A DNA stretch of 23,705 bases, taken from a virus. Shown here piece by piece: positions 1,363 through 10,075 of the stretch. Both the position numbers and the translations under genes were made by a program. The notes beneath the pieces are model-generated. The model saw only the letters and a list, made by a program, of their open reading frames with translations, did no database searches and was not told the origin of the DNA. How positions within the stretch are numbered: the stretch's first letter is position 1; each line of letters starts with the position of its first letter. The DNA is taken from the IMG/VR virus record IMGVR_UViG_3300042691_008999, positions 1-23,705 of that record, one strand, 5' to 3'.

Positions 1363-1620
1363 TTAGATACGTTTTGTAATATCTAGGATAGCTTCAATTT
1401 CTTGCCAATCTTCATTATAAGCACTCCAATCGCCTTTATGCGCGATTTTAATTGCCTTGTTAATGACGCTGGGTTTTACTTGTAATTCTTCTGCAACTGC
1501 CTTGACTGTTTCTTTTAAGCCTTCTTGTAAATCTTCAATTTCACGTAGTACTGTGGAACCTTCACTAATTAAACGTTCCAATTTAGCCTTTTCTTCTGCT
1601 CCGTAATTGCGACCAGCCAT
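1363..1620 (-). CDS. dsbA: DsbA-like dsDNA-binding protein (late-transcription associated)
   Basis: Small 85-aa helical, charged protein. Its C-terminal half (VKAVAEELQVKPSVINKAIK, then HKGD and a run of acidic residues) resembles T4 DsbA in length and layout. T4 DsbA is an 89-aa dsDNA-binding protein linked to late promoters, with the similar core RAKDELGVDGKMFNRL...YHKD. It should bind phage DNA as a small accessory factor. It has a good ribosome binding site (AAGGAG, 6 nt before ATG) and its own sigma70-type promoter immediately upstream, so it probably leads the transcript that also reads the DNA polymerase. The match is by pattern only; a generic helix-turn-helix protein is the alternative. 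Confidence 0.6.
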   Translation of the reverse strand: MAGRNYGAEEKAKLERLISEGSTVLREIEDLQEGLKETVKAVAEELQVKPSVINKAIKIAHKGDWSAYNEDWQEIEAILDITKRI

Positions 1621-1673: not shown

Positions 1674-1685
1674 GAGAGGAATTAA

Positions 1686-1712
1686 AAAACGGCAAAATAA
1701 ATTTGCCGTTTT
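1686..1712 (-). terminator. Rho-independent terminator
   Basis: An 11-bp perfect stem (AAAACGGCAAA 1686-1696 with TTTGCCGTTTT 1702-1712) has a 5-nt loop. Read on the minus strand it is followed by TTTTTAATT. It starts 2 nt after the stop codon at 1715-1717. This placement suggests that the reading frame ending at 1715, not the one ending at 1942, is the natural end of the upstream gene. Confidence 0.85.
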
Positions 1713-1714
1713 GT

Positions 1715-1945
1715 TTATGCTGAAAAATCTATACCAAATGTTTTTTTAGCATCGTACCCCTTACTGTCCAAATATGCTTTTACTGCGGCACGTTTTTCTG
1801 GAGTAGCATTATCATATGCTTTCTTAACTTCGCCTTTTGCTAGACTTGGATATTGAAAGGCCATATCTATGTCAGATCTTTCTTTAGCAGTCAGTTGTAC
1901 TGGAGTTTTAGCGGTAGTACTAGCAGTAGGATTATTAGCTGTTAC
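1715..1945 (-). CDS. Putative -1 frameshift extension (76 aa) of the gene ending at 1942
   Basis: This frame has no start codon of its own near its beginning. It is open from the A10 run through 76 codons to TAA at 1715-1717. It begins VTANNPTASTTAKTPVQLTA, a Thr/Ala/Pro-rich linker like the rest of the upstream protein. It then gives a compact charged domain (KERSDIDMAFQYPSLAKGEV, KKAYDNATPEKRAAVKAYLD, SKGYDAKKTFGIDFSA). The composition continues that of the 0-frame product, and the frame stops at a terminator. It is most simply translated as a fusion, by ribosomal -1 shift at A AAA AAG (1951-1945) or RNA polymerase slippage on A10. A one-base sequencing or assembly error in the homopolymer is the competing explanation. 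Confidence 0.7.
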   Translation of the reverse strand, partial: VTANNPTASTTAKTPVQLTAKERSDIDMAFQYPSLAKGEVKKAYDNATPEKRAAVKAYLDSKGYDAKKTFGIDFSA

Positions 1946-3024
1946 TTTTTTTTTTCGGCAGCTTTTGCGTCTTGCTCTGCTCGATTTTGTAATCCAGTAC
2001 CGGTATATACATCTCTTAATCTGCTAGAGCTTGAAGTTGCCTTTCCTTCTGGTTTTCCGCTTTGTGAAACTGTGTTTGCATTATCTGCGGATCCTGCTCC
2101 GCCTTGATACTTGTCACGTAGTCGTTTTAATTCATCTGGAACCGGTGCATCTTTAATAGGATCAAGTTCTTTAAATAACGCATCGATCTCTGCTTTGAGT
2201 TTATCTTCTTCTGAAGGTTGAGCAGGTGCTGGAGCAGGTGCTGGAGCTGGTGCTGGAGCTGGAGCAGGTGCTACATTAGGACCAGTTGTCGGTGGATTAA
2301 CAGGTGCTGTTACTTCCGGCTTACCACTTTGATCTGTTTCATCATCACCAGAAACTAAATCAGATATAGCACTACCTGCCTTGTATAACCCGACTCCTGC
2401 AACAATTCCAAGTGCAGCCGCCAGTTTTGGATTTCGTTGCACAAATCTTTTTAATACAGCACCCCGTTGTGATAGTTTTGCTTTAGGTGTTGTTCCAGGT
2501 TTAGGTGCTTCACCAGCTTTAGGTGTTGTTCCAGGTTTAGGTGCTTCACCAGCTTTAGGTGTTGTTCCAGGTTTTGGTGCTTCTCCTGCCTTTGGTGTGG
2601 TTGTATTAGGAGCAGTTGTATTAGGTGATGTATTAGTTCTTGGTGTGGTTGTATTAGGAGCAGTTGTATTAGTTCTTGGAACAGCAGTTGGTGCGTTATA
2701 TGTTGTTTGTCCGTAATTACCTTGTCTATAGTTTGCGTTTGGTGTAGCAGTTGATGTTGTAGCAGTTCCAGAAGATTTTTGTAATTTTACAAAATCGTCT
2801 GTGCTTATAACTTTATTTGTTTGTCTATTAAGATAGTTATTACCTACTTTTTCCCAAGTCTGACCATTTATGTTTGCTACCCTCGGTAACTGTGCGGCTA
2901 GTCTTTGTGCGGCAGTTGGCCCAACCATCTGTTGAAATACTTTATCTGCCGCTTTCTTTTTGGCAGCTTCGGAAACTGATGTGTCTGTTTCTACAATGTT
3001 AATATAATCTCTTAAATTTTTCAT
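1942..3024 (-). CDS. Pro/Thr-rich repeat protein, putative internal virion protein (0-frame product)
   Basis: About 360 residues. I choose the start at 3024 (MKNLRDYINIVETD) because AAGGAA lies 6-7 nt upstream; an in-frame ATG at 3042 overlaps the previous gene and has no ribosome binding site. The N-terminus ends in I-V-E at 10-12, like a T4 capsid-targeting peptide. A helical region follows, then a Thr/Asn/Pro linker with three 12-residue GEAPKPGTTPKA repeats, a short hydrophobic stretch (LAAALGIVAGVGLYKAGSAI), a Pro-Ala run, and a charged region with RLRDKYQGG and RLRDVYTGTG. It ends AEKKK-stop inside an A10 run, and a -1 shift would add 76 residues. The function is unknown. Low-complexity linkers joining small modules suit a virion or internal head protein. 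Confidence 0.7.
   Translation of the reverse strand: MKNLRDYINIVETDTSVSEAAKKKAADKVFQQMVGPTAAQRLAAQLPRVANINGQTWEKVGNNYLNRQTNKVISTDDFVKLQKSSGTATTSTATPNANYRQGNYGQTTYNAPTAVPRTNTTAPNTTTPRTNTSPNTTAPNTTTPKAGEAPKPGTTPKAGEAPKPGTTPKAGEAPKPGTTPKAKLSQRGAVLKRFVQRNPKLAAALGIVAGVGLYKAGSAISDLVSGDDETDQSGKPEVTAPVNPPTTGPNVAPAPAPAPAPAPAPAPAQPSEEDKLKAEIDALFKELDPIKDAPVPDELKRLRDKYQGGAGSADNANTVSQSGKPEGKATSSSSRLRDVYTGTGLQNRAEQDAKAAEKKK
1945..1956 (-). promoter_or_regulatory. A10 slippery site with A AAA AAG heptamer before TAA
   Basis: The minus-strand frame reads GAA AAA AAA AAG TAA. This contains the classic X XXY YYZ heptamer A AAA AAG (as in E. coli dnaX) in the correct phase, directly followed by the stop. Shifting -1 gives GTA ACA GCT and 76 open codons. 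Only a weak downstream stem is visible (GTACT pairing with AGTAC 14 nt apart). Confidence 0.6.
2223..2273. repeat. Pro-Ala coding repeat
   Basis: Tandem GGTGCTGGAGCA-like units encode an alternating Pro-Ala run on the minus strand, a stiff linker within the protein ending at 1942. Confidence 0.8.
2481..2588. repeat. Three 36-bp tandem repeats inside a coding region
   Basis: Copies at 2481-2516 and 2517-2552 are identical; the copy at 2553-2588 differs at three bases. Each encodes 12 residues (GEAPKPGTTPKA, minus strand). A second imperfect repeat follows at about 2592-2683, encoding NTTTP/NTTAP units. The near-identity suggests recent slippage or unequal recombination. Confidence 0.9.
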
Positions 3025-3034
3025 CGATATTTCC

Positions 3035-4282
3035 TTAAGCACTCATGTAGTATTGTTGTATAGCGGCTTTAGTAGGTTCGTCTATAATTCCAGTAACTTG
3101 GATTTCAGCGCCAGCTTTGATTAGATCTTGTTGTATAGCAGTAATAGTTAACTTGCCTAACACACCATCAACACCGTCACCGCCTGGGCCAGTAGTACCT
3201 AGATTATATCCATCTGCTTTTAGTTGTGCTTGTAATTCTGCTACATCTGGATCTGAGTTTCTAGGCTGTGCTTTTGCAACTTTTTTTCCGCCTGCTTTAC
3301 CGGTATTTTGTACTTTTGATCCTGCTGGTGGTTTTCCTTGTTGTGTAGCTTGATACACTTTTTCAACAATAGCATCAACAATTGAATTAACATCATCACC
3401 TAGAGCATAGCTTGCCGCTAGTCCGCCAACTCCACCAGCTACGAATCCGACTATCGCACCTGGTCCAGTAATAGCACCTGCTATTGCCGCACCGATAATA
3501 GCACCGGCCCAGAATAAACCAACTTGTGCAACAACCCGACTAATAATTTTAGAAACTTCTGCTTTGTAGCGACTTTCTGGTAAGTCTGTTGGCAGAGCTT
3601 TAATTTCTTGCCAAGCGTCCCAGGCTTCCCATAGTACCATAACAGGTAGTGCTACTTTGCTTAATACTTTTCCGCCAAAGCCTTTAAGTGACTGCCAAAC
3701 ACCAGTTGCCGGCGCCGCCGGAACTTGCATAGTAGCCGCTGCCGCCGCTTCGAGCAAGGTGTAATTATAATTCTCCATTAGATCTTTAACAATAACATTC
3801 TCTGTTAAATCTTGTTTGGTTACGCTTTCAACAATGTAATAGGCTAACGACGACTCTTGAACTGGTGCAGGTTGTGCTGAAGATTTTTTCAACTCTAACC
3901 ATTTGTCGATAAGTCCTTCTAATTTTTTTAGTTTTTCTAAAATAGCAGGATCTAGCAATAGTTTAGGATCAATAGGTTCGCCTAGTTTTACACCAATCTT
4001 AGCTAGTAAGTTTTTAACATGAGTTAATTCACCAAATACATCGCTAAAGTCATCTAGAATATCTGCATCAACTTCTGGATAGATTCTTCTGATTTCTTGC
4101 CACTGACGTGCATCTTTAACATCGCCGATAGCCGCATAAACTGCTTCCTCGTCGGTGCCTAGACCTGTAACTGCTTTTCTAATTTGTGCGGCAATTTTTG
4201 ATGATGCATCAAGTGTATCCGAAGGTGCTTCAGACAGTCTCTCGATTTCATCCATTTTTTCAATTAATGATTTCAAGTCCAT
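3035..4282 (-). CDS. Annexin-like / glycine-rich membrane / peptidoglycan-binding protein, putative internal virion protein
   Basis: 415 residues with several modules. Residues 1-18 end in L-S-E (16-18), a possible prohead-protease site. Residues about 29-85 resemble an annexin repeat: IRKAVTGLGTDEEAVYAAIG with GLGTDEE at 40-46, then ADILDDFSDVFGE. A helical charged region covers 86-135. Residues 159-180 hold further L-x-E sites (LTE, LME, LLE) before an Ala run. Residues 253-291 are hydrophobic and Gly/Ala-rich (GLFWAGAIIGAAIAGAITGP...), suited to membrane insertion. Residues 344-412 look like a PG_binding_1 domain (VAELQAQLKADGYN, GVDGVLGKLTITAIQQ, TGIIDEPTKAAIQQ). The combination suggests a protein delivered with the DNA that meets the envelope. 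It follows the 107-aa gene by 1 nt. The domain calls are by eye; the annexin match is the least certain. Confidence 0.7.
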   Translation of the reverse strand: MDLKSLIEKMDEIERLSEAPSDTLDASSKIAAQIRKAVTGLGTDEEAVYAAIGDVKDARQWQEIRRIYPEVDADILDDFSDVFGELTHVKNLLAKIGVKLGEPIDPKLLLDPAILEKLKKLEGLIDKWLELKKSSAQPAPVQESSLAYYIVESVTKQDLTENVIVKDLMENYNYTLLEAAAAATMQVPAAPATGVWQSLKGFGGKVLSKVALPVMVLWEAWDAWQEIKALPTDLPESRYKAEVSKIISRVVAQVGLFWAGAIIGAAIAGAITGPGAIVGFVAGGVGGLAASYALGDDVNSIVDAIVEKVYQATQQGKPPAGSKVQNTGKAGGKKVAKAQPRNSDPDVAELQAQLKADGYNLGTTGPGGDGVDGVLGKLTITAIQQDLIKAGAEIQVTGIIDEPTKAAIQQYYMSA

Positions 4283-4283
4283 A

Positions 4284-4607
4284 TTAGATCTCTTTATTAC
4301 GATTTTCCATTACTTTGTCTGCAACCTTACGTGCATACATTTTTAGTTGTTCTTTCCGTTCTTGCTCTTTTTGTGAAAAAAGCTCTTCTGCTTCAACAAA
4401 ATATTTTTTAATCACAGAGTCAGTTTTTGGAGTATCAACAACTTTTTCGTTTTGATAGTGTTGCATTGCCATTTGTACAGGAAGGCTAACTTTATGTGGA
4501 CTAGCACCTTCCTTTACGATTTGTACAAATTTTTTCATGTCATCAGATCCTTCTACAGGCTTATTTGAAGCACCGTCTAATGCCTGCAGAATTTTCTTCA
4601 TGTCCAT
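4284..4607 (-). CDS. Conserved phage protein of unknown function (107 aa)
   Basis: Charged, mostly helical protein beginning MDMKKILQALDGASNKPVEG. Its middle, SPHKVSLPVQMAMQHYQ, looks like a conserved block, and the C-terminal half is Lys/Glu-rich (EAEELFSQKEQERKEQLKMY). There is no signal peptide, membrane segment or known catalytic motif. It sits between two putative internal virion proteins, 5 nt after one and 1 nt before the next, so it is probably made late with them. It has no clear L-x-E N-terminal peptide. I recall similar N-termini in T4-like aquatic phages but can give no function. Confidence 0.75.
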   Translation of the reverse strand: MDMKKILQALDGASNKPVEGSDDMKKFVQIVKEGASPHKVSLPVQMAMQHYQNEKVVDTPKTDSVIKKYFVEAEELFSQKEQERKEQLKMYARKVADKVMENRNKEI

Positions 4608-4612
4608 ACTGA

Positions 4613-5875
4613 TTACCCGTTTAATCGTGTTAAGAACTGTTTCATACGGTCAAGTTCGGTTGACTCGTTTAAAGAATCAGTTTTTTCTTCTTCGCATTCA
4701 CAAGGATCCTTGTGGCATGCATCGCATTCTTGTGATTCTTCAATTTGAAAATCTTCTGGATTTAAATTCTCTAAATTTAGATCTTCTAGTTCTTCTGCAA
4801 CTTCTTCTTTGCTAGGTGCTAGTTCTTCTAAACTCTCTTTAAGAGATTTAGCTTTTGATTTCCATTGTGTACTAGCATCTTCTTTTACTTTTTTATCTTT
4901 TTTTGCAAACGGATTTTTCTTCTTGTCAGCAACTGCCTTTTTCATCGGCTCCTTTTTGTTGCCGTCTTTGTCCATGTCTAAAAAGTCTGGCTTGGCTGCT
5001 TCATCAACTTTCTTTTCTTTGCCCATAGCCTTCTTGATAGCTTTGTCTTTATTGTCCATGTACTCTTTCGAGTCTGGTTCGTCCTTGCCATCGTGGTCCA
5101 TATCACCTTTATCAGATTCGTTAACTTGCTTACCGTCGACATAACGCTTAACTGAACCTGGGTGTTTCTTTTCATAGGCCTTAGATGCTTTCTCTTGTTC
5201 TTTGTCTTTGGCTTTTTGTTCACGACGTTCTGCACCAGTCATTGCAGTTTTCTTTTCTTTCTTAGGTGGAACATAATCCTCATCGTCTTCTGGTTTAGCA
5301 TCACGCTTGTGAACTAGGCCAGTTGAAGTTTTTGTAGCAGTTCCGTGCTGTGTTTTATATGTGTCACCAACTTTTGATTTTTCGTCAAATGCTTCTTCCA
5401 TGCTACCACATTCTTTCATACCATGCACTGGACACTCTGTACCTTCTGCTGTATGGTTGCAGGATTTAGCTTCGTCGACTTTCTTTTCTTTTTTGTCTTT
5501 CTTGATCTTCTCAGCCTGAGCTTTTTTGAGTTCAGCTACTTTGGCTTTTGCTTCTGTAAGTTTAGTTAGGATCTCACGCTTGCGATCTTCGCTCATAACT
5601 TCAGCGTTGGCAAGATGTTCACCGTACTCACTGAACTTCATTTCATATTCTAAGTAGTGATAAACAGATGCGATATAATCCGCGGCTTTGGTAATTTTAG
5701 CCTGAACCCAACTTTCTAGTTGAGTTGAATCATCCATACGCTTGAATAGTTTAAGCGAATAGTTTGCTAACTTGTATAAGTCAGCTTTAGCCATCGCTCC
5801 TTCGCGGTCGTTATTTGCTTCGGCTCCTGCGTTGTGAGCGTCTGGATTAAAATCTGGTTGCATGTCGTCGTGCAT
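4613..5875 (-). CDS. Lys/Glu-rich protein with EF-hand-like loops and Cys clusters, putative internal head protein
   Basis: 420 residues. Residues about 23-78 form a compact block (NDREGAMAKADLYKLANYSL, LESWVQAKITKAADYIASVY, HYLEYEM) that I recognise as recurrent in T4-like aquatic phages. The rest is mostly Lys/Glu/Asp-rich and probably disordered. It contains two Asp loops like calcium-binding EF-hand or dockerin loops (DMDHDGKDEPD at 258-268, DMDKDGNKKEP at 300-310). It also has Cys clusters (C139, C148, C156; C384, C387, C392, C394). It ends ELDRMKQFLTRLNG. A good ribosome binding site (GGAG, 8 nt) and a GATAAATA late-type box lie upstream. The composition suits a DNA-neutralising internal protein or scaffold-like core component; the function is not established. 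Confidence 0.75.
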   Translation of the reverse strand: MHDDMQPDFNPDAHNAGAEANNDREGAMAKADLYKLANYSLKLFKRMDDSTQLESWVQAKITKAADYIASVYHYLEYEMKFSEYGEHLANAEVMSEDRKREILTKLTEAKAKVAELKKAQAEKIKKDKKEKKVDEAKSCNHTAEGTECPVHGMKECGSMEEAFDEKSKVGDTYKTQHGTATKTSTGLVHKRDAKPEDDEDYVPPKKEKKTAMTGAERREQKAKDKEQEKASKAYEKKHPGSVKRYVDGKQVNESDKGDMDHDGKDEPDSKEYMDNKDKAIKKAMGKEKKVDEAAKPDFLDMDKDGNKKEPMKKAVADKKKNPFAKKDKKVKEDASTQWKSKAKSLKESLEELAPSKEEVAEELEDLNLENLNPEDFQIEESQECDACHKDPCECEEEKTDSLNESTELDRMKQFLTRLNG

Positions 5876-5901
5876 GGTAAGAACTCCGTAATCTTATGTT
5901 A

Positions 5902-5909
5902 TATTTATC
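5902..5909 (-). promoter_or_regulatory. T4-late-type promoter box GATAAATA
   Basis: GATAAATA on the minus strand, 26 nt before the 420-aa gene, differs from the T4 late -10 element TATAAATA at one base. It overlaps the last codons of the preceding gene. Confidence 0.5.
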
Positions 5910-6687
5910 GTTTGATGCTTCCGCCTGTTAGAAGATTAGCCTTCATATCTAGGGCGTTTTTAGCTGTACCGTCTTTGTTTTTAGGCTGTTTAGGCGGTTT
6001 ATTTTTATAAACTGCTCCAACTGCTACATTACCTGCACTAGTAGAACCTGCTGTTGCGGTTTCTGCTAGATCATCTTCTGCTTTTTTAGTAAGCATGATC
6101 TTACCTTGCAGTTCTGGTTTATTTTTTAGGATAGCAAGGCCGTAATTATTAGCACCTTTTTTCCAGTCAAATACTTTTGGCTCACCTTTGCTCTTTAAAA
6201 TTTTTCCGTTAATCTTTAAGTACCAAGGCCCGCGATCTAAGTCGCGTTGTTTTTGTACTTGTTGCTGATAATATTCTTCTTCGTCGCCTAGTTCGTGCTC
6301 CATTTCGCGGCGTTTGAAGTCACGCTTTTCCCGATCCATTTGACGTTGCTGATCACGCTCGTAGTCCATTGGATTATAGTAACTGCTTTTTCTTCCGTAC
6401 ATTTCTTCTACACTTTCTTTGGGAACACAATTAGGAACAGTACGTCCACCTTTTTTCTTAGTACCTACAGGCTTGTAGCCCTTCCAACAGGGATTGTCTT
6501 TAGGATCACGAAGACCTTCATCCATTGGAACTTCTTGTTTCTTATGTTTGAAGTCGCCTTGCTTTTCAGCTTTCTTTTTATCCTTGTGTGCTCCAGACCC
6601 GCTAGTCTGCTGATTTTTAGCAACAAAGTTTCTAGGTTTGGGTGCTTCTTGTTTTTTAGCTTCGGATAATATTTCGTATGCTTTCAT
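5905..6687 (-). CDS. Conserved charged protein, putative internal head protein (260 aa)
   Basis: Begins MKAYEILSEAKKQ, a close look-alike of the T4 internal-protein targeting peptide ending in L-S-E (7-9). A Lys-rich region follows, then a two-Cys block DNPCWKGYKPVGTKKKGG...VPNCVPKE (64-90, C67 and C87) that I recall from many aquatic T4-like phages. Next is a highly charged Arg/Glu/Gln helix (about 105-150), a small folded block GPWYLKINGKILKSKGEP...FDWKKGANNYGLAILKNKPE (153-192), and a C-terminal TATAGSTSAGNVAVGAV stretch ending GGSIKR. There is no enzyme motif. An AGGA ribosome binding site precedes ATG. I infer packaging in the head from the N-terminus and neighbours. Confidence 0.75.
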   Translation of the reverse strand: MKAYEILSEAKKQEAPKPRNFVAKNQQTSGSGAHKDKKKAEKQGDFKHKKQEVPMDEGLRDPKDNPCWKGYKPVGTKKKGGRTVPNCVPKESVEEMYGRKSSYYNPMDYERDQQRQMDREKRDFKRREMEHELGDEEEYYQQQVQKQRDLDRGPWYLKINGKILKSKGEPKVFDWKKGANNYGLAILKNKPELQGKIMLTKKAEDDLAETATAGSTSAGNVAVGAVYKNKPPKQPKNKDGTAKNALDMKANLLTGGSIKR

Positions 6688-6688
6688 T

Positions 6689-6907
6689 TTATTTTCCTAC
6701 AGGTTTCTCGCCCGTTAAGTAAGGCTTACTAAACCATAACTGGAACCATTCCGGTGTTCCTGGTTTAATATTATGTTTTTTCATTAGTTCGCCTTTTTCG
6801 TTTCCGGTAATGCTGATATTACTTCCTTGATTAATAGAATATTCACTAAGTCCTCGAAACTTATTGCCTATCCCAGCTAACTGTTTTATTTGATCAAGTT
6901 CATTCAT
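6689..6907 (-). CDS. Conserved small phage protein (72 aa)
   Basis: Begins MNELDQIKQLAGIGNKFRGL and has L-S-E at 20-22, a possible prohead-protease site. The C-terminal block HNIKPGTPEWFQLWFSKPYL is rich in aromatic residues and looks conserved. The N-terminal ELDQIKQL resembles ELDRMKQF at the C-terminus of the 420-aa protein encoded at 4613-5875. The gene is spaced 1 nt from each neighbour and has no obvious ribosome binding site, so it may depend on translational coupling. Function unknown. Confidence 0.7.
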   Translation of the reverse strand: MNELDQIKQLAGIGNKFRGLSEYSINQGSNISITGNEKGELMKKHNIKPGTPEWFQLWFSKPYLTGEKPVGK

Positions 6908-6908
6908 A

Positions 6909-7343
6909 TTATTTCATAGATGCTCTTAACATCCAACTGTGTTTGCGATGTGCATCCATACGTCCTGCGATAAAATCACTTAGACCGTGTTCACCTAAAT
7001 CTTCGCTCATATCAAAAACTAATTTAAGTAGCTTGACCATTTTTTCGCTATCTTCGTGCAATTCTGCAAGCATCTGTTCTGCTGGTAGCATTTGTGTTTC
7101 ATCATCAACTTGCGTTAGCATCGAAAATCTTTGCAAACTAGCAGGCGTATAAGTTCCAGCCTTGCGTATATTTTCTGCAAAATCGTCGATACTATCATAG
7201 ACTTCTTCATAGATTTTTCCAAACAACTCATGATATTGAAAGAAGTTTGGTCCTTCTACGTTCCAATGAAAATTCTGTGCTTTTAAAGCAAAGGCAAATT
7301 CGCTAGCAAATGCCGTCTTTAGTGATAAATGAAATCTTTCCAC
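6909..7343 (-). CDS. dps: Dps-family mini-ferritin
   Basis: 144 residues, slightly shorter than cellular Dps and without the long Lys-rich N-terminal tail. The Dps core is clear: ALKAQNFHWNVEGPNFFQYH, ELFGKIYEEVYDSIDDFAEN, IRKAG. The dinuclear iron site ligands H26, H38, D53 and E57 have the family spacing (+12, +15, +4), so ferroxidase activity is expected. Dps proteins form 12-subunit shells that oxidise and store iron with peroxide and may coat DNA. The start is GTG at 7343, with GGAG 7 nt upstream; an overlapping ATG is out of frame. It lies among putative internal virion proteins, which raises the possibility of packaging, though it has no targeting peptide itself. The family call is firm; the role in infection is open. 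Confidence 0.93.
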   Translation of the reverse strand: MERFHLSLKTAFASEFAFALKAQNFHWNVEGPNFFQYHELFGKIYEEVYDSIDDFAENIRKAGTYTPASLQRFSMLTQVDDETQMLPAEQMLAELHEDSEKMVKLLKLVFDMSEDLGEHGLSDFIAGRMDAHRKHSWMLRASMK

Positions 7344-7344
7344 A

Positions 7345-8484
7345 TTATACTCCGTACTTGTTCTTTTTAGGTTTAGCCACAGGGCTAACTGTATTTGTTG
7401 ACTCTAATTCTTGGCTACGCATGTCACCGTGATTTACATCTTGATGACTAGCACCAGCAGCCTTAAAGGCTTTTTTTAATATTTTAGCATCTTGTTCTGA
7501 ATACGGAAATGCTACTTTAAATTTTCCAACCCAGCTCTTAGGATCGATATCAGGATCGTTTTCTCCGTCGGTCATAGCTGCCGCCATCATAGCACGGTAC
7601 TGTACATAATCAGCATTCCATCTCTCAGCATCGGCAAATTTATAGACACCTCTAGTAGACTGCTGTTGCCTTTTAGTAATTTTTCCTTCTTTTGCTTCTT
7701 GTAGTTCTTGTTCAATTACCTTAATTTGTTCTGCAAGTTTAAAAGCACGTAAGTTCTTACCTGGAGTTGATGCATCAACATCAGCTGTAGTATTTTGTGC
7801 AGTAATCCTACCTACACCAAATTCTTCTGCAACCTCTGGTTGTTTCTTTTTGGCCTTGGCAGCTTCTTTTTCAGCCTTAAGTCTTTCTTTTTCTGCGGCT
7901 TGATGTAAGTAGGGTGTTAGATAATGTTTAACAACTTCAAAGAACGACTTCCCGCCAATCGGTGTGTTAGCAGGCACACCAGCTGCCTGTTCAAATGCCT
8001 GCGGATCGTTATTAGCAACAGCCGCACGTAATTCTGTAGCACTACTAATGCGAGGTGCTTCTTCCCATACAATATCTTTAAATCGGTAAAAACCGTGTGG
8101 GCCTTCTACACCGTTAGATTTTTGTAATCCTGCAACAAATACTTTTGCATCAGCCGGATCAGTTACAACGTGTAGGGTAACAGGTCCGTGTTTTTTATAC
8201 ACATGTGCGGCTAATGTCCACCAACTTTGTTCGGCAACGAGATGTTCTTTGACATCTGGCCAAATTGCCTGCATGGCTGCAATTTTAACTTTAAATGGTA
8301 AAGGGTCTTTAGGACCTTCTGTACTTTGATTTGTACCAACGTACCAAGCACTAAATCCAGAAGCTAATTCCCAAGCGGCTTTATGCCCTTGATGAGGAGG
8401 ATTAAAACGGCCAAAAATGATTGCAACATCTTCGACTGATTCACCTGCTTCATATATATTTTCGTATAGTTCTCTTAATTTCAT
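7345..8484 (-). CDS. HxGH adenylyltransferase (NMNAT/cytidylyltransferase-like) with phage C-terminal module
   Basis: 379 residues. After a short N-terminal peptide ending I-Y-E (10-12) comes a nucleotidyltransferase domain: VAIIFGRFNPPHQGH (20-34, HxGH H31/H34) and ISSATELR (146-153), equivalent to the ISSTxxR signature. This pattern suits nicotinamide-mononucleotide adenylyltransferases; substrates with the same fold include pantetheine-phosphate and CTP-linked alcohols, so specificity is not proven. A Lys/Ala/Glu coiled region (195-220) leads to a separate C-terminal module (about 265-365: KRQQQSTRGVYKFADAERW, PDIDPKSWVGKFKVAFPY, GDMRSQELESTN) that I recall in many aquatic phage proteins. 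The start overlaps the stop of the ligase-like gene by 4 nt, so the two should be translated together. Confidence 0.85.
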   Translation of the reverse strand: MKLRELYENIYEAGESVEDVAIIFGRFNPPHQGHKAAWELASGFSAWYVGTNQSTEGPKDPLPFKVKIAAMQAIWPDVKEHLVAEQSWWTLAAHVYKKHGPVTLHVVTDPADAKVFVAGLQKSNGVEGPHGFYRFKDIVWEEAPRISSATELRAAVANNDPQAFEQAAGVPANTPIGGKSFFEVVKHYLTPYLHQAAEKERLKAEKEAAKAKKKQPEVAEEFGVGRITAQNTTADVDASTPGKNLRAFKLAEQIKVIEQELQEAKEGKITKRQQQSTRGVYKFADAERWNADYVQYRAMMAAAMTDGENDPDIDPKSWVGKFKVAFPYSEQDAKILKKAFKAAGASHQDVNHGDMRSQELESTNTVSPVAKPKKNKYGV

Positions 8485-9698
8485 ACTCTAGTTGCTCCCG
8501 GAGCCCACGATGTTGGTACTAATTTTATATTACCATATTTATGCCCTGGCTGTGCATAGCGAACGTAGCCTTCGCCTTCGGTGTCCCATATCTCAGGCCG
8601 ACTCTGCGATTTATAAGTAGCTACTACTTTATCTTTCATGTCGCGAATATCTTTGATCAAATCAAATATAGCATCAAGTCCGCCGGGCTGTTGTTTAATC
8701 ATATCGATGATATGCTGTTGTTTCTTTTGGCTTACGCCTTTTTGTTGCATCCAGTTCATAAAAGTTTCGCCAGTAATACTACGGAAGTTTTGTTTGCCAG
8801 CCGCATGTAAGTTACTCATCTGATTAAAGAACGGATAAAATATTCCGTTCTTATCAGGATCAGGTAGGCTAGCTAAGAAAGCATCTACTTTTGGACCTAA
8901 TTTAGTAGCACGTTGTATTGCGATATCGATTTCTTTCGTATCCATACCGCTACCTTCACTAGTATAGATCGGACCTTGAACAATTAGTCCGGCTGTTTGA
9001 TTAAACATTGAAAAGTCATCCATTGGTTTCTGCGCTCTGTCAGGAGCACCGAACTGATCAAACGATCCATGTCCTACGACCATTACTCTTGCCTTGCTAA
9101 TACGCTGTCCTAGTTCACTTGTGGCATCAACGTGGTAACAGGTCTTTGATTTAGGATTAGGACAGAAAGTCCATATTCCGTTAGGATATTCTTTAGTCTT
9201 TTCTAAACGTTTGTCTAGGCTAGGATCAACTCCAAATAAACTATCAGCATATACAAAGCCTACAAAGTCTTTAGGTGTAGCCGAATCAAATAATGGATAT
9301 AGATTGGCAAAATTCTTAGCAAACGACTGCCTTGCTTTTTGGTCTTCGGGTGTTTTAGGTTTTCCGCTTTGATTAGCAATAAAATCATATACACCTTCTG
9401 GAGTATCTGATTTTACACCTCTGCTCCACTGATTGTGTCCTGCAAGGATTAAGGGACCGCCCTTAGTTTCTCTACCCCAATAGACTTGCGGGTTACCATC
9501 CCATTTGCCGCGTACTGTAGTACCACCTGCTTTTTCCTGTGCGATTTCTTTAAAATGCTGTAATGCTTCCAGCGTACCTTGAGATCCTTTAAAGAATACT
9601 AGATGTTCTGGATGATTAAATGCCCGACCGTATTTTTCCATACTGTCGTCAGCAGGTCCAGATTTATCCTCAAAATAAAATAGTTCTCTAAGTAACAC
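8481..9698 (-). CDS. DNA/RNA ligase-like covalent nucleotidyltransferase (DUF6267-like)
   Basis: 405 residues. Motif I-like VRGKWDGNPQVYWGR has the candidate nucleotidyl-lysine K65 in KxDG. FVGFVYADSLFG fits a motif III position, EGYVRY (376-381) fits motif IV, and YGNIKLVP (K392) fits motif V. This is the order of the ligase/mRNA-capping superfamily. The middle is not like classical ligases, and I recall such phage proteins classed as an uncharacterised family (DUF6267). The substrate is unknown. It starts at GTG 9698 with AAGGA 6 nt upstream, 2 nt after the previous stop. The N-terminus MLLRELFYFE resembles the targeting peptides of its neighbours, though without a strict L-x-E. It overlaps the adenylyltransferase gene by 4 nt. 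Confidence 0.75.
   Translation of the reverse strand: MLLRELFYFEDKSGPADDSMEKYGRAFNHPEHLVFFKGSQGTLEALQHFKEIAQEKAGGTTVRGKWDGNPQVYWGRETKGGPLILAGHNQWSRGVKSDTPEGVYDFIANQSGKPKTPEDQKARQSFAKNFANLYPLFDSATPKDFVGFVYADSLFGVDPSLDKRLEKTKEYPNGIWTFCPNPKSKTCYHVDATSELGQRISKARVMVVGHGSFDQFGAPDRAQKPMDDFSMFNQTAGLIVQGPIYTSEGSGMDTKEIDIAIQRATKLGPKVDAFLASLPDPDKNGIFYPFFNQMSNLHAAGKQNFRSITGETFMNWMQQKGVSQKKQQHIIDMIKQQPGGLDAIFDLIKDIRDMKDKVVATYKSQSRPEIWDTEGEGYVRYAQPGHKYGNIKLVPTSWAPGATRV
8536..8543 (-). promoter_or_regulatory. Possible late-type box CATAAATA
   Basis: CATAAATA on the minus strand lies 51 nt before the adenylyltransferase start, within the ligase-like gene. It is one base from the T4 late box, but it also encodes part of HKYGNI, so chance is likely. 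Confidence 0.25.
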
Positions 9699-9700
9699 AG

Positions 9701-10075
9701 TTAGTCCTTATATTTGCCTTCTTGGAAATTTTTACAAAATTCTTCATGCATTTTTTGGCAAACTTCGTTACAAGTTTGTTCTTCTATTGTATGAGGAAGC
9801 TGTCTAATAGGAAATTCTTTTATATAATTTTTATATGCTTGTTCAACAACTTTTTTAAACACATTAGGGGATGGTTCTTTATTAGAGTTCATAGACTCTA
9901 CGCAGTTGCTAATAACTGGGTATAAGTGCCTACGATAAAGGTCGTCATTATTGTTTAGATAAAAAACTAAATCTTCAACTAAATCATAGGCGATATCTGT
10001 TCGTCCGTCTTCGGTTTTAGTAATAAAGTTAAGATCGTTAAACTTTTTGCCTTCTAAAAGCTCTCTAATACGCAT
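9701..10075 (-). CDS. Conserved phage protein (124 aa)
   Basis: Begins MRIRELLEGKKF with L-L-E at 6-8, again like a capsid-targeting peptide. The body is soluble and mostly helical, with blocks IAYDLVEDLVFYLNNNDDLY, RRHLYPVISNCVES, IKEFPIRQLPHTI and CNEVCQKMHEEFCKNFQEGK. The last has three regularly spaced cysteines. I recall proteins with the same architecture in T4-like cyanophages, without a known function. It is the first gene of the cluster behind the best late-type promoter box and is followed by the ligase-like gene after 2 nt. Confidence 0.8.
   Translation of the reverse strand: MRIRELLEGKKFNDLNFITKTEDGRTDIAYDLVEDLVFYLNNNDDLYRRHLYPVISNCVESMNSNKEPSPNVFKKVVEQAYKNYIKEFPIRQLPHTIEEQTCNEVCQKMHEEFCKNFQEGKYKD

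Follow-up and report, generated by a model that had tools for sequence, protein, structure and literature searches.

The window analysed here is the whole of a 23,705-nt stretch of viral DNA (IMGVR_UViG_3300042691_008999). Coordinates follow its plus-strand numbering, and the gene of interest lies, with its junction, on the minus strand. The gene encodes a body protein, ends on a run of adenines and is continued, in the -1 frame, by a module that stops just short of a terminator:

3038..4282, minus strand: upstream neighbour of 415 aa, containing two hydrophobic stretches plus a peptidoglycan-binding domain
1945..3024, minus strand: body ORF, 360 aa from the ATG at 3024, with its stop at 1944-1942
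1946..1955, minus strand: A10 run (T10 on the plus strand), the putative realignment site
1942..1944, minus strand: TAA stop of the 0 frame, immediately 3' of A10
1718..1945, minus strand: module in the -1 frame (P0001), 76 codons, with its stop at 1717-1715
1683..1712, minus strand: terminator-like stem-loop (ACGGCAAATTTATTTTGCCGT) and T run, common to relatives without the module
1363..1620, minus strand: downstream gene of a DsbA-like transcription regulator, the anchor of the locus in relatives

The body probably starts at ATG 3024, with AAGGA upstream, and its 0 frame ends as GCC GAA AAA AAA AAG TAA. The earlier note had described a run of ten A's holding A AAA AAG before the stop, and a -1 frame open for 76 codons up to 2 nt before a terminator. 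Both descriptions are correct when read on the minus strand: the run occupies 1955-1946, the heptamer A_AAA_AAG lies at 1951-1945 in the phase of the 0 frame (A_AAA_AAA is likewise in phase), the open frame spans 1945-1718, and the terminator stem begins at 1712, 2 nt past the -1 stop. Downstream of the junction, the dsbA-like gene is followed by that of a DNA polymerase. On the other side (3035-10075, minus strand), several neighbouring products start alike (MDLKSLIEKMDEIE, MDMKKILQALDG, MKAYEILSEA, MKLRELYENIYEAG, MRIRELLEG), perhaps with a shared targeting signal, as in T4 internal head proteins. The window also encodes, at 6909-7343, a ferritin/Dps-like protein within a phage gene cluster (Pfam Ferritin, E 1.2e-20).

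A10 is the sole homopolymer longer than 8 in the window. Dinucleotide shuffling predicts about five overlapping A9 hits in a stretch of this kind, so that A9 would not be rare by chance, and the evidence on the junction was therefore taken from relatives. The earlier note had proposed looking for the same junction in related phages, and it was recovered, in the same phase, in eight further viral contigs. With the window this makes nine carriers, from several metagenomes, that fall into three divergent types with about 80% identity in the DNA of the module:

Type 1 (window, L002, L003): GAA AAA AAA AAG TAA, that is A10 GTAACA
Type 2 (L004-L006): TCA AAA AAA AAG TAA, that is A9 GTAACA
Type 3 (L007-L009): CAA AAA AAA ACT CAG TAA, that is A9 CTC AGTAACA

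All nine combine a long upstream ORF, a run of A9 or A10, a TAA in the ORF's own frame and, always in the same phase, the module in the -1 frame; the contigs L003 and L006 end within that ORF, with the junction intact in every case. The stop of the upstream ORF stands at the run or two codons behind it. In the L007 type the CTC is a difference of 3 nt that preserves the phase; A_AAA_AAG is gone there, while A9 is kept with A_AAA_AAA in phase. Over 643 kb of related loci we found just five distinct A9 sites, two of which are this junction. The remaining A9 runs of the phage group sit within continuous ORFs (L076:3320, L082:3041 and L092:3089), where polymerase slippage, if it occurs, would yield truncated products. 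Because such runs occur within continuous genes too, an A run is no proof of recoding by itself. A screen of the loci for other slippery-stop extensions returned, besides these junctions, only what appear to be normal overlaps between genes or short frames open by chance.

Between types, and in the -1 frame alone, synonymous codon differences in the module (21-23) outnumber nonsynonymous ones (3-9): the window differs from the other types by 22-23 synonymous and 3-7 nonsynonymous changes, and L004 from L007 by 21-22 and 8-9, respectively. Restricted to the last 58 codons, the synonymous and nonsynonymous counts are, in that order, 22 and 3 between the window and L004, 22 and 6 between the window and L007, and 21 and 8 between L004 and L007. 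In the other two frames the module contains 4-13 stops and the differences are nearly all nonsynonymous. When substitutions were placed at random, none of 5000 trials in any comparison matched so few amino-acid changes. Purifying selection thus acts on the -1 frame and on no other, and the synonymous excess, taken with the random placements, is strong evidence that this frame is translated.

The module opens with a variable linker of 16-18 aa; the remaining 58 aa or so form a conserved helical domain. AlphaFold2 predicts four helices in a short bundle, with a core pLDDT of 86-89 when the wider alignment is used. In a viral structure library the module matched (probability 0.99, E 0.15) a protein of Synechococcus phage S-SRM01 that is 536 aa long; tblastn also gave a weak match in this protein, and hhalign aligned the module with a 20-sequence family of the S-SRM01-type domain at 96% and E 4.9e-9. 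On these profile and fold comparisons, the module is a distant homologue of a helical domain of about 50 aa present in S-SRM01 and in many uncultured phages. In that family, which includes the hypothetical S-SRM01 protein QPX48005.1, the domain stands behind a proline-rich linker and, in contrast to the window, is in frame and internal, with about 100 residues after it. Its gene belongs to a baseplate cluster, the S-SRM01 copy being flanked by baseplate genes, an M23 peptidase gene and a hub lysozyme gene. The earlier note had held that homologues with a simple continuous frame would speak against recoding; a continuous frame is found only in these distant copies, in a different protein, and never in the same gene. 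Apart from S-SRM01 the module has no match in annotated phages, none in plasmids, bacterial genomes or archaeal genomes, none in the PDB by sequence or by fold, and no family in Pfam or PHROGs. The baseplate-cluster proteins of about 550 aa (L107-L147 and MW015081.1 24803-26413) form a family with a conserved AWQYRNNPMARGRIE..W domain that is not in Pfam.

What precedes the run is far less constant. In the window, the body is rich in proline, alanine and threonine, contains tandem repeats, ends in ...AEKKK and has no Pfam match. A 36-bp tandem repeat at 2480-2602 encodes PKAGEAPKPGTT units, and the near-identical contig L002 is without 6 residues of this repeat, so that copy number differs between close relatives. 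The L004 body is most similar to that of L030 (62%), and the L007 body to those of L050 and L034 (61.6%), whereas the L004 and L007 bodies share only about 42% with each other. L030, L034 and L050 do not have the module at this position, where their ORF ends ahead of the same terminator and dsbA-like gene, nor anywhere else in their contigs, although these may be incomplete. Against the L004 and L007 bodies, that of the window gives no blastp match at E 1e-4; its only similarity, a weak one, is to portions of other bodies found at this position. Judged by similarity, then, the upstream ORFs of the carriers are more than one conserved protein, that of the window being a third, dissimilar one.

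By its polymerase (that of L004 was used), the phage group of the window belongs to the T4 superfamily, the closest named relatives being large phages of Sinorhizobium and Agrobacterium. In the polymerase tree, carriers are interspersed among non-carriers inside one supported group, which requires three changes, gains or losses. Since two of the carrier bodies resemble proteins of relatives without the module, and that of the window is a third protein, the arrangement appears to have been repeatedly gained or lost. Repeated acquisition of the module is likely, though unproved because the three changes could be one gain and two losses. The shared phase fits two histories: either the module moves as a unit with the A run and the stop, or bodies have been exchanged upstream of a fixed end. 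Tentatively, and with less than even chances, the former would make of the module a portable recoding cassette, a domain spreading among unrelated phage proteins and bringing a poly-A slip site and a stop of its own. Were this the case, landing before the shared terminator would automatically create a minority C-terminal form through slippage of RNA polymerase.

These observations are best accounted for if the gene has two products, and we consider this very probable. Most expression would stop at the TAA behind A10 to give the protein of 360 aa. A fraction would be realigned by one base on A10, enter the -1 frame and yield 436 aa, with the helical domain added at the C-terminus. RNA polymerase slippage would do so by placing one extra A in some mRNAs, and the ribosome would reach the -1 frame by re-reading the last G; either route predicts the identical fusion, ...AEKKK-VTANN..., with VTANNPTASTTAK as its predicted tryptic peptide, and both may contribute. 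The earlier note had proposed two forms made by programmed frameshifting or transcriptional slippage: comparison of phase, selection and bodies gives good support to the two forms, which either mechanism may produce. Slippage of RNA polymerase is documented in bacteria on runs of 9 A's (PMC5009743, PMC1088944), and within the three divergent types known we lean slightly toward it, because all have runs of 9 A's or more, longer than a heptamer requires, because the L007 type lost A_AAA_AAG yet kept the run, and because the three share no RNA structure. Pure -1 ribosomal frameshifting at A_AAA_AAG or A_AAA_AAA, with no polymerase slippage, is a serious contender whose likelihood, short of even, is part of that granted to the two products. 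An X_XXY_YYZ heptamer stands in phase near the stop in every type, and A_AAA_AAG ranks among the most shift-prone heptamers in Escherichia coli (PMC4066793). A strong and well-placed hairpin lies downstream of the run in the L004/L005 type (z -5.0 and -4.6); being what ribosomal frameshifting leads one to expect, it counts against slippage. The window and L007 types, however, have no such downstream structure (z +1.1 and +0.6) and no pseudoknot above shuffles, inspection by eye found no Shine-Dalgarno-like stimulator, and the L007 type dispensed with A_AAA_AAG while retaining A9. A perfect 8-bp hairpin, GTACGGTG...CACCGTAC, sits inside a longer stem in the module linker at L004:4022-4046, in the L004/L005 type only.

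Other ways of understanding the junction do without recoding. Runs of A9 or A10 are hypermutable, and bacterial poly-A/T runs serve phase variation (PMC3711429), so that replication slippage could toggle the genome between a separate and a fused state, the contigs displaying the separate one only. This is improbable, as nine of nine assemblies are out of frame alike though the module remains under selection. Slightly less probable still is that initiation, or reinitiation, within the gene yields the module as a small protein of its own. In the window and L004 types the module does contain an ATG, and L007 has one elsewhere, but start positions are not conserved (the ATG common to the window and L004 is ACG in L007), no good ribosome-binding site is apparent, and the conserved N-terminal part L-T/S-x-K-E-x-S-D-I-D precedes the ATG. 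The earlier note had also kept open a single-base error, to which homopolymers are indeed prone. Nine contigs from several metagenomes, in three divergent types with an identical phase, speak against it; the strong purifying selection does so too, and makes a decaying pseudogene hard to sustain as well, which leaves error or decay as the least credible account of all. Stop read-through was rejected, the 0 frame closing 16 codons past the TAA.

As to what the two products might do, a protein acting in the virion or at the envelope is plausible, a minority of its copies carrying a domain for attachment or docking. The repeat-bearing body rich in proline, alanine and threonine, the peptidoglycan-binding neighbour and the baseplate-cluster homologues suggest it. 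For the association with the virion assumed in the earlier note, the neighbour and the homologues are weak hints.

Phages are known to add domains by frameshifting. As PMC5009743 recounts after Fraser (2006), Ig-like domains are frameshifted onto structural proteins, the T3 capsid and Lactobacillus phage A2 being cases in point; according to that same account these domains are promiscuous, appear on a fraction of the copies and are thought to be acquired by recombination. Like them, the module is a C-terminal domain carried by different proteins, some of which have it in frame while in others it is out of frame. Unlike them, it is predicted to be all-helical (AlphaFold2) and has no Pfam family, the shift would take place on 9-10 A's, with the -1 phase shared by all three known types of carrier, and its body is no known capsid or tail protein. 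Because of its predicted helical fold, we place it outside the Ig-like family. Slippage at 9-10 A's in Thermus thermophilus dnaX, in bacterial IS elements and in Shigella type III secretion genes uses the same run to make a trans-frame product, whereas here phage proteins would gain a mobile accessory domain from it. The tail assembly chaperone G/GT of phage lambda is likewise a phage gene with a 3' extension in the -1 frame, but the present junction is not beside a tape-measure gene (it precedes dsbA-like and DNA polymerase genes) and its body is larger and variable. Text searches of the open-licence literature yielded neither a title nor an abstract on this domain or arrangement. As far as this search reached, the frameshifted add-on domain is a known trick of phages, while this domain and its arrangement are new.

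The locus would thus be a second, non-Ig case of a phage domain read in frame within one protein yet attached out of frame to others, and it defines a helical phage domain that had not been described. A C-terminus of this kind, encoded in the -1 frame, would escape gene callers. It may also provide a clean natural case in which to ask whether it is poly-A slippage or shifting of the ribosome that determines how much of an accessory domain is made.
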